From Herpetosiphon giganteus (GTDB lineage: Bacteria; Chloroflexota; Chloroflexia; Chloroflexales; Herpetosiphonaceae): a DNA stretch of 64,000 bases. The stretch lies in contig NZ_JAFBCZ010000002.1 in assembly GCF_016907925.1 (NCBI RefSeq), positions 186,001 to 250,000 of the forward strand. Reading direction: 5' to 3'. The notes beneath the pieces are model-generated. The model saw only the letters and a program-made list of their open reading frames with translations. It was not told the DNA's origin and made no database searches. The first letter of the stretch is position 1. The number at the start of each line of letters is the position of its first letter. Made by a program: the position numbers and the translations under genes. Shown piece after piece: positions 42,658-46,822 of the stretch.

Positions 42658-42751
42658 TGTTGATGCTCCTTCGCGCTGCGGCGATAACTTCATACTTGTT
42701 TTCTGAATGTAGTGTAGCAAGCTCCTAGCCATGCTTCTGTAACTTTAGTCA

Positions 42752-42770
42752 CATAATGAGAATGATTCTA
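42752..42770 (-). promoter_or_regulatory. Fur-box-like site upstream of the ferredoxin gene
   Basis: CATAATGAGAATGATTCTA matches the classic 19-base Fur box at 14 of 19 positions by eye. No gene starts on the other side, so the ferredoxin gene is the only likely target. Regulation by iron is inferred. Confidence 0.4.
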
Positions 42771-43289: not shown

Positions 43290-44660
43290 ATGTCAACCTA
43301 TGTGATCGACGGTCAGGAACTGCATATCCGCGATAACCGTCGCAATGCCCCTGTTGCCTTGTTAATTCATGGCTGGTCAAGCTCGTGGTTTACTTGGACA
43401 CCGCTGCTGCAAGCCTTAGGCACGCGCTATTCGTATATGGCGGTCGATTTGCCTGGCTACGGGCGGTCGCCTGCCCCAAAGCACCCAATTACGATTGAAT
43501 GGTATGCTGATTTGATGGCCAAACTGATCGAAGAGGCCAGCGATCGGCCTGTGGTTGTGCTTGGCCACTCGATGGGCGGCCAAATTGCCATGACGCTGGC
43601 GCTACGCCACCCGATGTTGGTCGAACGCTTGATTTTGCTCAATCCTGTGGTCAGTGGCCGCTTATCGACCTTTATCAATCTGTTTGTGGCTCCGCATATT
43701 TTGCTTGAGCGCACCCGCTTGGGCGGTAAAATATTAAGCTACCTCGAAAATACCCCCTTGAGCTATATCAATCAGTTGATGAAGCCAATTTTATTTGCCG
43801 AACGTGCCGCCATTTCGCAACAAGATTACGACAGGATTCGGGCTGATGCTCGTCGGCCTGGCCAAGGAGCCGTGCGCGCTGCCTGTTACGAAGCCATGAA
43901 AATGGGCGATTTGCGCGGCAAACTCAAGCAAATTCAGCCGCCAGCTCAAGTTATTTGGGGCGCTGAAGATAACACCGTCCCCTTGCGTGATGCTGGTGCA
44001 GTCGCCGACGAATGGACGGAAGCCGATTTGCGCTTGATTCCGAATGCTGGCCATTGGCCGCATTTTGAGCAATACGAAACGACCATGCGCTATATTGCTT
44101 CGTTTTTGGGCTTGCCAATTTTGCCCAGCCTGCCCAATGCCCAAGTTCAGCAACAACGCGACCTTGATGTGGGCGAAATTGCTCAATTTCTCTCGAATAC
44201 CGAGTTGGGCCAAGATCTCAGCGAATCGCAACGCATGCGGGTGGCTGGTTTGTGCCATCAACATCATTTTGCGCCCCAAGATATTTTGGCGCTTGAAGAT
44301 TCGAGCGGCGACGAGCTGTTTATTGTGCAAGATGGCCAAGTCGATGTCCTAGTGCGCATCAGCAACGAACTTGGGATTGATGAATCGCGGCGGGTTAATG
44401 TGTTGATGGCAGGCCAAATTGCTGGCGAGATGGCCTTAATTCAAGGCAAAGGTGGTCGCCGTACCGCCGATTTACGCGCTGGCAAATCGGGAGCAACCGT
44501 GCTTTCGATCGATAGCCGCTACCTGTTTGCCTTGTTTGAAGATGATGCCTCGCTTGGTCTGAAGTTGATGCAGAATTTGGCTCGTTCATTGGTGCAGCGG
44601 CTGCGGGTGCAAAATTGGCAATTACAGCTAGCTGAACAACGCGCCGAAGTTCATCGCTGA
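43290..44660 (+). CDS. Alpha/beta hydrolase fused to a cyclic-nucleotide-binding domain
   Basis: 456 residues in two parts. Residues 1-275 form an alpha/beta hydrolase: LLIHGWSSSW oxyanion region, GHSMGGQ with nucleophile Ser94, an acid in WGAEDNTVP, and His in NAGHWPHFE. Residues about 290-445 form a cNMP-binding domain: SSGDELFIVQDGQVDVLVR, AGQIAGEMALIQG and RRTADLRAG correspond to the phosphate-binding cassette (GE-x-AL ... R-x-A). A ligand-controlled esterase or lipase is suggested. GAGGG precedes the ATG. I do not know a characterised protein with this layout. Confidence 0.88.
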   Translation: MSTYVIDGQELHIRDNRRNAPVALLIHGWSSSWFTWTPLLQALGTRYSYMAVDLPGYGRSPAPKHPITIEWYADLMAKLIEEASDRPVVVLGHSMGGQIAMTLALRHPMLVERLILLNPVVSGRLSTFINLFVAPHILLERTRLGGKILSYLENTPLSYINQLMKPILFAERAAISQQDYDRIRADARRPGQGAVRAACYEAMKMGDLRGKLKQIQPPAQVIWGAEDNTVPLRDAGAVADEWTEADLRLIPNAGHWPHFEQYETTMRYIASFLGLPILPSLPNAQVQQQRDLDVGEIAQFLSNTELGQDLSESQRMRVAGLCHQHHFAPQDILALEDSSGDELFIVQDGQVDVLVRISNELGIDESRRVNVLMAGQIAGEMALIQGKGGRRTADLRAGKSGATVLSIDSRYLFALFEDDASLGLKLMQNLARSLVQRLRVQNWQLQLAEQRAEVHR

Positions 44661-44923: not shown

Positions 44924-46822
44924 ATGAATCGTCAACGAATAATTGGGCTTGCTGGATTGCTTGGGCTAGCGGTGTTGATCTTAATCTTGCCGCAGAGCCG
45001 TTTTTGGTTTGCGGCGCTGGTTTGTACGCTGGCCCCAGGCTACCTGCTAGAACGCTGGCTGGATTTGGAGCTAGCGCCATTGGTGCGTCCAAGTCTCTGG
45101 ATCGGCCTAAGTTTGGCGGTTTGGCCACTGGGCTATGTCTGGTTAACCACGTTTGGTCTAGCCTTCAGCGTTGGCATGATTACCTTTATCGCCTTTGGCT
45201 TAGTTGGTGGAGTCGCTTGGCGGCTATGGCGCGAGGGCGAAGAGCCTTGGGCCTTGCCAGCGCCAGTGCCAATTCTTGGCTTGGCGTTGTTGATTGTGAG
45301 CTTCGCGATTAGCACCAGAATTAGCCATATTCGCAACGTCGCGTTTCCGCCGTGGGTCGATTCAATTCACCATGCCACGATTATGCGGGTGATTGCTGAG
45401 CTTGGCCAAGTGCCCTATTCGTTGCGGCCTTATCTGCCAGTTGATAATTTTGGCTATCACTGGGGTTTTCATTCGACTGCTGCCACAATCTACAATTTGA
45501 GCGGCATGAGCATTCCGCAATTTATGCTGTGGTATGGCCAATTTTTAGGCGTACTGATTGTGATTTCAGTTGGCAGTGCGACGATTGGCCTGACCAAAAG
45601 CCCAATTGCTGGTTTAGCTGCTGCGACCATGACGGGCTTTATCTCGATTATGCCCGCCTATTATCTCAGTTGGGGCCGTTATACCTTGCTTGCTGGGTTG
45701 GCAATGGTTCCGGTGGTTTTGCTATTGGCGTGGGTTGCGATGGATCGCAGCGATCGCAAAGGCCTGATTTTATTGACAATTGCCATTGGTGGGCTGTTGC
45801 CGACCCACTTTGTGGCGGCAGGCTTTGCCTTATTATGGTGTGTCGCGGTCTGGTTGGGGCGCGATGTTTGGTCCGAGCAACGCTGGCGGGTGCTGGGCAA
45901 TCAAGCGGCAGCAGTTGGCATGGCAATTTTGTTGATGTCGCCATGGCTGGCCTTGTTGATTAGCGAAATTCAGCCTGCTGGCAGTGGAACGCCTAAACAA
46001 CTGGTTGGCGGCGGCTACAACACCTACGAAGCTGCTAAAGGTCTGTATTGGACATGGAATAACCTTCAGATCTTCTTAGTAAGTTTGTTGGCGGCTTGGG
46101 TTGGGTTGTTGAAGCAATGGCGTTTGGTATTGATTAACAGCCTTTGGGCGCTGCTGGTGATGCTATTTGCCAATCCAGTCGTGCTTGGTTTGCCCTATCT
46201 CTCATTTTTCAACAACAACATTGTGGCTTTGGCAATCTTTCTGCCGATTAGTTTGTGGTTTGGCTTTGGGGTTGCTTCATTGGACCAAGGCTTGAGCCAA
46301 CATCTTAAAGTGGGCGTGGCCCGAGGTTGGCGCGCGATTCGCACCGCAATCTTGGCAATAACTGTGCTGATTTCGGCTAGCAAAATGCATAACGTGATCA
46401 ACGATGGCACAATTATCGCCAAAGCCGATGATTTAACCGCCCTGAATTGGATTGTGCAGCGCATTCCCAAAAATGCCCGTTTTGCGATCAATACTGAAGG
46501 CTGGCTCTACAATGTGGCGCGCGGCAGCGATGGTGGCTGGTGGATTTTGCCCTATGCTGGTTTGCAGCTGAGCACGCCACCAGTGGTTTATAACCAAGGA
46601 ACCTTTGAGTATATTGATGCAGTTGAGGCTGAAACAGGCTGGTTGCGCAACGCCAGCGATAAAACGCCAAGTGAGCTAGCCCAGTGGATGCGTGAACATG
46701 ACTATGATTATGCCTATGCGACAATTGATGGCAAGATCTTCAATCAAGCCAAATTAGCTAATACGCCGGAATTTGAGTTGGTGTATGAAAATGCGAGTGT
46801 GGCAATTTATCTGCGGAAATAA
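44924..46822 (+). CDS. Large polytopic membrane protein, GT-C glycosyltransferase-like
   Basis: 632 residues with about 12 membrane helices over the first 490, then a soluble domain of about 140 residues at the C-terminus. An extracytoplasmic loop with FPPWVDSIHHATIMRVIAE and FGYHWGFHS is reminiscent of the acidic and aromatic first loop of GT-C enzymes or of DUF-type arabinosyltransferase relatives, but no decisive motif is seen. No clear ribosome-binding site before the ATG. Substrate and pathway unknown. Confidence 0.75.
   Translation: MNRQRIIGLAGLLGLAVLILILPQSRFWFAALVCTLAPGYLLERWLDLELAPLVRPSLWIGLSLAVWPLGYVWLTTFGLAFSVGMITFIAFGLVGGVAWRLWREGEEPWALPAPVPILGLALLIVSFAISTRISHIRNVAFPPWVDSIHHATIMRVIAELGQVPYSLRPYLPVDNFGYHWGFHSTAATIYNLSGMSIPQFMLWYGQFLGVLIVISVGSATIGLTKSPIAGLAAATMTGFISIMPAYYLSWGRYTLLAGLAMVPVVLLLAWVAMDRSDRKGLILLTIAIGGLLPTHFVAAGFALLWCVAVWLGRDVWSEQRWRVLGNQAAAVGMAILLMSPWLALLISEIQPAGSGTPKQLVGGGYNTYEAAKGLYWTWNNLQIFLVSLLAAWVGLLKQWRLVLINSLWALLVMLFANPVVLGLPYLSFFNNNIVALAIFLPISLWFGFGVASLDQGLSQHLKVGVARGWRAIRTAILAITVLISASKMHNVINDGTIIAKADDLTALNWIVQRIPKNARFAINTEGWLYNVARGSDGGWWILPYAGLQLSTPPVVYNQGTFEYIDAVEAETGWLRNASDKTPSELAQWMREHDYDYAYATIDGKIFNQAKLANTPEFELVYENASVAIYLRK

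Follow-up and report, generated by a model that had tools for sequence, protein, structure and literature searches.

A putative signal-controlled serine hydrolase of Chloroflexota: an alpha/beta hydrolase fused to a cyclic-nucleotide-binding domain

Whether a cyclic nucleotide may control a hydrolase within a single bacterial protein is the question raised by a locus of Herpetosiphon giganteus. Among bacterial receptors of cyclic AMP, those studied best regulate transcription, and enzymes under its direct control are few. In the 64,000-nucleotide stretch of the 6.16 Mb host genome that was analysed (hereafter the window; contig NZ_JAFBCZ010000002.1, positions 186,001 to 250,000), one gene joins an alpha/beta hydrolase to a cyclic-nucleotide-binding (CNB) domain. 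The original prediction read the product as a small-molecule-gated esterase. We ask here whether the gene is real, what its two domains are, in which contexts they occur, and which function best accounts for them.

One gene and its relatives

The open reading frame runs from ATG to stop through 456 codons with zero internal stops (Table 1). The protein shares 98-100% identity with its counterparts in Herpetosiphon records (98% with that of H. aurantiacus DSM 785, L086), and the intact fusion is present in six genomes of the same genus. In a survey of 60 related genomes, 35 encode the full fusion in a single frame, among them all nine of the window's family, and one more (G025) has it in two frames. 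A contig scan with two peptide patterns gave 169 pattern matches and 137 relatives; the best 80 of these 137, kept by a ranking that favours full fusions, so that the count is not a fusion rate, all carry the whole fusion in one frame, down to 43% identity. The reading that two genes were joined by a sequencing error or by misprediction of the frame can draw on G025 and on two of the 80 loci (L130 and L157) that stop some 40 residues early, but it is refuted by the independent genomes with an intact fusion, and its probability is negligible. The single gene of the original prediction, free of a frameshift, thus stands. Relative to the H. aurantiacus orthologue, dN/dS is 0.015 overall, 0.012 in the hydrolase and 0.025 in the CNB part; selection on the gene is strongly purifying.

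The same domain combination, for which the original prediction had proposed a search, is almost confined to Chloroflexota among the kept relatives: Herpetosiphonaceae, Roseiflexus, Chloroflexus, Chloroploca, Anaerolineae, Ardenticatenaceae, Thermoflexus and other Chloroflexi. The one exception among the 80 records, assigned to Candidatus Gracilibacteria (L151), may be mis-binned. Within the phylum the distribution is patchy. With four to five candidates per genome scored, a family member was found in 37 of 399 genomes (the fusion in one frame in 33 and in two frames in one, and the hydrolase only, inside frames of about 870 aa, in three). In a second class, surveyed in the same way, 16 of 298 genomes have a member: 11 with the full fusion, four with the hydrolase only, and one cut at the contig start with the CNB part kept. 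Most genomes with the fusion have one copy. A plasmid collection has 1027 matching records, of which none covers more than 80% of the query; the matches listed are hydrolases.

A tree was built from 45 hydrolase domains, comprising 38 of the 80 loci, the window and six paralogues; of the alignments, A2 holds 66 of the 80 loci, and A3 and A4 hold 36 each. A single branch (78/97; 82% of 200 bootstrap trees) separates all 39 CNB-fused rows from the REC-GAF and solo hydrolase rows. The arrangement therefore appears to be old and to have been inherited mostly intact.

The hydrolase and the CNB domain

Table 1. Features of the fusion gene (positions in the window; residues of the 456-aa protein).
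Feature	Position	Strand	Basis
Whole gene, alpha/beta hydrolase-CNB fusion, 456 aa	43290-44660	+	ORF, Pfam, relatives
Alpha/beta hydrolase domain, residues 1-276	43290-44117	+	Pfam, AlphaFold model, PDB fold match
Ser94, nucleophile in GHSMGG	43569-43571	+	80/80 relatives
Helical cap, residues 127-205, with Arg172, Asp186, Arg188	43668-43904	+	Model secondary structure, residue counts
Asp227, catalytic acid in WGAEDN	43968-43970	+	80/80 relatives
His255, catalytic base in GHWPxFE	44052-44054	+	80/80 relatives
Linker, residues 277-297 (21 residues), poorly conserved	44118-44180	+	Column conservation
CNB region, residues 298-456	44181-44657	+	Pfam, profile, model, fold match
PF00027 match, residues 325-418	44262-44543	+	Pfam
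Phosphate-binding cassette, Gly379 to Ala393	44424-44468	+	Conservation in 80 relatives
Glu380 of cassette	44427-44429	+	80/80 relatives
Arg391 of cassette	44460-44462	+	80/80 relatives
Long C-terminal helix, residues 420-455, CNB B/C-helix position	44547-44654	+	Model, alignment

The N-terminal domain matches the Pfam families Abhydrolase_6 (residues 24-263; 1.2e-28, 101.7 bits, cut-off 26.3) and Abhydrolase_1 (2.4e-28). Its Ser-Asp-His triad is complete, as originally predicted; Asp227 lies inside one of the search patterns and its invariance is not independent, whereas that of Ser94, His255, Glu380 and Arg391 is. In the cap, Asp186 and Arg188 are invariant in the 80 relatives and Arg172 is kept in 79. 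The AlphaFold2 model of the whole fusion, made with 67 sequences, has a mean pLDDT of 87.6 and a pTM of 0.79. Its hydrolase part (residues 1-275) is closest to an Exiguobacterium esterase (5h3h; Z 32.1, rmsd 2.2, 252 residues aligned) and an enol-lactonase (2xua; Z 31.9, rmsd 2.4, 255 residues aligned). The sequence profile places HsaD at the top (2e-28), followed by an epoxide hydrolase, a PHB depolymerase and 6i8w, by its title a membrane phospholipase A. In an NCBIfam scan of the fusion protein the best models fall far below their cut-offs, so that no named enzyme family takes the protein.

The motifs narrow the class further. At the positions counted, the hydrolase has HGW-SS and GHSMGG in all 80 relatives; the HGGGPG oxyanion motif and the GNS nucleophile motif of HsaD are absent from it, and on these motifs a place in the C-C (meta-cleavage-product) hydrolase class was rejected. 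Arg172 aligns with the HsaD arginine assigned to the substrate carboxylate, which hints weakly at an acidic substrate. The domain would thus be an alpha/beta serine hydrolase most like carboxylesterases and enol-lactonases, with an acyl ester or lactone, perhaps bearing an acidic group, as its predicted substrate.

The C-terminal domain matches cNMP_binding (PF00027) at 8e-10 and 39 bits (cut-off 27.5). Since the PDB matches found with the whole model were confined to the hydrolase, the CNB domain was folded and searched alone (37 sequences, pLDDT 92.4). Its nearest folds are 3gyd (Z 19.6, 146 residues, rmsd 1.6), Thermus CAP (19.2), PycTIR-cUMP (8jsk, 19.1) and M. tuberculosis CRP-cAMP (19.0), which are tied in Z. 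By sequence profile the best match is a multi-CNB chain (1.3e-39), followed by PKG chains (from 8e-29), PKA and CRP (about 4e-9), a ranking that cannot separate PKG from CRP because multi-CNB chains add up. On these models both folds, that of the esterases and enol-lactonases and that of CRP/PKA-type CNB domains, are confirmed. Mean column conservation is 0.73 in the hydrolase, 0.61 in the CNB domain and 0.38 in the linker.

The GE-x-AL motif and the cassette arginine named in the original prediction are Gly379-Glu-Met-Ala-Leu383 and Arg391, in one frame with the hydrolase. Gly379 and Ala393 are invariant in the 80 relatives, as are Glu380 and Arg391, and the residue after Arg391 is Ser in 61 and Thr in 19 (Arg391-Thr-Ala in the window). 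The spacing from Glu to Arg is nine in 73 of 80 relatives, 11 in six and eight in one; in sequence, nine is the spacing of PKA. The positions aligned with CRP Thr127 and Ser128, which we take to be base contacts, vary among the 80 relatives, so that the base is unpredicted and cAMP and cGMP are indistinguishable by sequence. In the long C-terminal helix, with which the protein ends, Asn429, Arg437 and Arg439 are conserved in 78 of 78 ungapped sequences, and Pfam and the model show no C-terminal helix-turn-helix. The cassette matches the canonical motif as given in the available text of Kannan et al. 2007 (PMC2246266). The same text describes PKA Gly169, in the beta2-beta3 loop, as co-conserved and ties it to cAMP allostery (PMC2246266); by alignment its counterpart is Gly340, which is Gly in 48 and Ser in 23 of the 80 relatives.

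Gene context, nucleotide supply and other uses of the hydrolase

Downstream of the fusion, the 80 loci encode DUF3054 in 13 cases, a CBS pair in eight and a tyrosine phosphatase in eight. A membrane protein of 632-672 aa lies downstream in five of the 80. The gene at 44924-46822 (+) of the window encodes a membrane-like protein of 632 aa with no Pfam match, and relatives of it are found downstream in five of the six Herpetosiphonaceae loci. A bacterial alpha-2-macroglobulin gene is directly upstream in eight of the 80 loci, for example L126:96-5699(+), one of them scanned with Pfam. These neighbours are lineage-specific; gene context therefore points to no pathway, and an operon-based pathway was dropped. 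Within the window, TGTGA-N6-TCACA, presumably the CRP-type operator, gives no signal (16 matches against 22.6 expected, with one near-match at 42738-42753), and promoter and terminator scans are at chance level.

The host genome has 17 Guanylate_cyc matches at about 15 class III cyclase places. In the cyclase alignment one of them (L056) has the adenylate-type Lys/Asp pair, and several others have Lys/Thr, which we take to be the class IIIb adenylate type. None of the cyclase genes lies within the window, and the 666 neighbouring ORFs of the 80 loci include two cyclase matches, both some 5 kb off and neither adjacent to the fusion. With no adjoining cyclase, the fusion would read a diffusible pool and not a dedicated partner.

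Related hydrolases occur with other inputs. One, about 50-55% identical, forms the C-terminus of proteins of 840-861 aa; a Pfam scan of two of these gave HisKA, REC and GAF domains but no HATPase. Proteins of this size class (840-853 aa) lie at L044:3336-5897(-), L045:3758-6319(-), L046:3346-5868(-) and L050:1455-4004(+), and relatives of a DUF1405-family gene adjoin three of these four loci. In Herpetosiphon a solo hydrolase gene of 284 aa is directly 3' of a gene for a HAMP membrane protein; such pairs are at L047:3345-5291(-) and L176:1829-3775(+). The last part of the HAMP protein and the stretch preceding the hydrolase in the REC-GAF fusion are 46% identical over 41 residues (3e-11, pairwise), a resemblance that would fit the division of a single protein into two. 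All six paralogues examined retain the triad together with Arg172, Asp186 and Arg188. Given the HisKA-REC-GAF fusion and the HAMP neighbour, the hydrolase family recurs as a signalling output. In the second class, the solo hydrolases L171:2386-4157(-) and L172:1978-3716(-) adjoin a gene for a band-7/stomatin-like membrane protein (by eye). The CNB part also occurs alone: two relatives of 168 and 171 aa, L048:2258-2764(-) and L049:3275-3790(-), retain Glu and Arg in an intact cassette, and near the latter are a small-GTPase gene and a DUF4388 gene.

Proposed function and known systems

The fusion is probably a signal-controlled enzyme, its signal being cyclic AMP or a similar molecule. More specifically, we favour, with some confidence, control of a serine ester hydrolase by a 3',5'-cyclic nucleotide, for which cAMP is the likeliest candidate. 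Gating by a cyclic nucleotide is the natural reading because the canonical cassette is kept in all 80 relatives and class III cyclases are resident in the genome. In the proposed scheme the protein would be a soluble, autonomous signal-response enzyme. Its CNB domain would bind a 3',5'-cyclic mononucleotide, Glu380 contacting the ribose 2'-OH and Arg391 the phosphate; cAMP, made by the host's class III cyclases, would be the most likely ligand. Binding would move the C-terminal helix (residues 420-455), and the shift would change hydrolase activity or access of the substrate. We infer the binding and identity of the ligand, its coupling to activity, the substrate and the direction of regulation. 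Against cAMP gating speak the variability of Gly340 and of the base positions, the lack of an adjoining cyclase and the existence of hydrolase versions without an obvious sensor (the solo genes).

The main rival holds that cyclic-nucleotide binding by the CNB domain serves location or assembly (at a membrane, with a partner or in an oligomer) and not catalytic gating. It is kept as such because, in the available text on PNPLA7, among studied proteins the nearest one to pair a serine esterase with CNB domains, the analogue 8-CPT-cAMP redistributed the protein and left its lysophospholipase activity largely unchanged (PMC5704489). The poorly conserved linker would allow loose coupling, and two of four solo homologues examined (L171 and L172) adjoin the band-7-like gene; yet Pfam and the model show two soluble domains only and no membrane anchor, and the hydrolase also occurs coupled to REC-GAF and HAMP modules, which are usual control inputs. 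We regard this rival as rather unlikely. That the CNB ligand has been lost, or replaced by a nucleoside or a different small molecule, leaving a structural appendage, has precedents among CNB domains in haem-binding CooA and in CprK (PMC2246266, available text) and would fit a Gly169 equivalent that is not invariant and base contacts that are not conserved. Against it, Glu380 and Arg391 never vary among the 80 relatives, whereas the families with a non-canonical cassette in that text depart from the motif (PMC2246266), and we hold such a change to be distinctly unlikely.

A Pycsar-type role in phage defence, in which a pyrimidine cyclase signals to a CNB-bearing effector, is suggested by matches of the CNB region to the PADLOC models PycC and PycTIR at 28-34 bits and by PycTIR-cUMP among the nearest folds. 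These PADLOC matches are limited to the CNB part, the fusion is neither of the TIR nor of the membrane type, and it is mostly single-copy and kept across genus and family. No cyclase is encoded in the window, and the two cyclase matches among the neighbours of the 80 loci are not adjacent to the fusion. This very improbable reading was rejected.

Beyond the favoured reading, regulation by a cyclic nucleotide, one may tentatively picture a single Chloroflexota-wide hydrolase family with varied sensors (CNB, HisKA-REC-GAF and HAMP), through which cAMP or other inputs would directly control the cleavage of membrane lipids or signalling esters. If cAMP gating is true, the fusion would represent bacterial cAMP signalling that acts at the post-translational level and not through transcription. 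Being soluble, mostly single-copy and widely conserved, with its key residues intact, it is a directly testable candidate cAMP effector and would be a natural model for CNB control over an alpha/beta hydrolase.

Among known systems, the esterase and enol-lactonase structures (5h3h, 2xua) and HsaD share the alpha/beta fold and the triad with the fusion hydrolase but have no CNB domain, and HsaD differs in its motifs as noted above. In Rv1900c-type cyclases of Mycobacterium, an alpha/beta hydrolase and a class III cyclase form one chain. There, as in the fusion, a hydrolase is tied to cyclic-nucleotide signalling within one chain, but the partner makes the nucleotide, whereas that of the fusion would sense it; the pairing of cyclase and hydrolase is discussed in the available text of PMC4886424. 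Neuropathy target esterase (NTE) and PNPLA6-PNPLA7 likewise combine a serine esterase with cNMP-binding domains in one chain; these are eukaryotic proteins of patatin fold that carry a membrane anchor and, at the N-terminus, three CNBs, while the fusion has an alpha/beta hydrolase, to which Pfam models match, and no Pfam match to a patatin-like phospholipase domain. No study of an alpha/beta hydrolase-CNB fusion was found in the open-licence PMC literature, and the original prediction's lack of a link to a studied protein holds for that literature and for the PDB searches. In the available text of Kannan et al. 2007, 30 CNB families are listed along with the domains they accompany; an alpha/beta hydrolase is described for none of these, and the main text never uses the term 'hydrolase' (PMC2246266). 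CRP/FNR regulators and the PKA and PKG regulatory domains (PF00027) share the CNB fold and the canonical cassette with the fusion; they act through a DNA-binding or kinase domain, whereas here the effector is a hydrolase. Enzymes regulated by CNB domains are thus already known, and the pairing with an alpha/beta hydrolase is a new variant.
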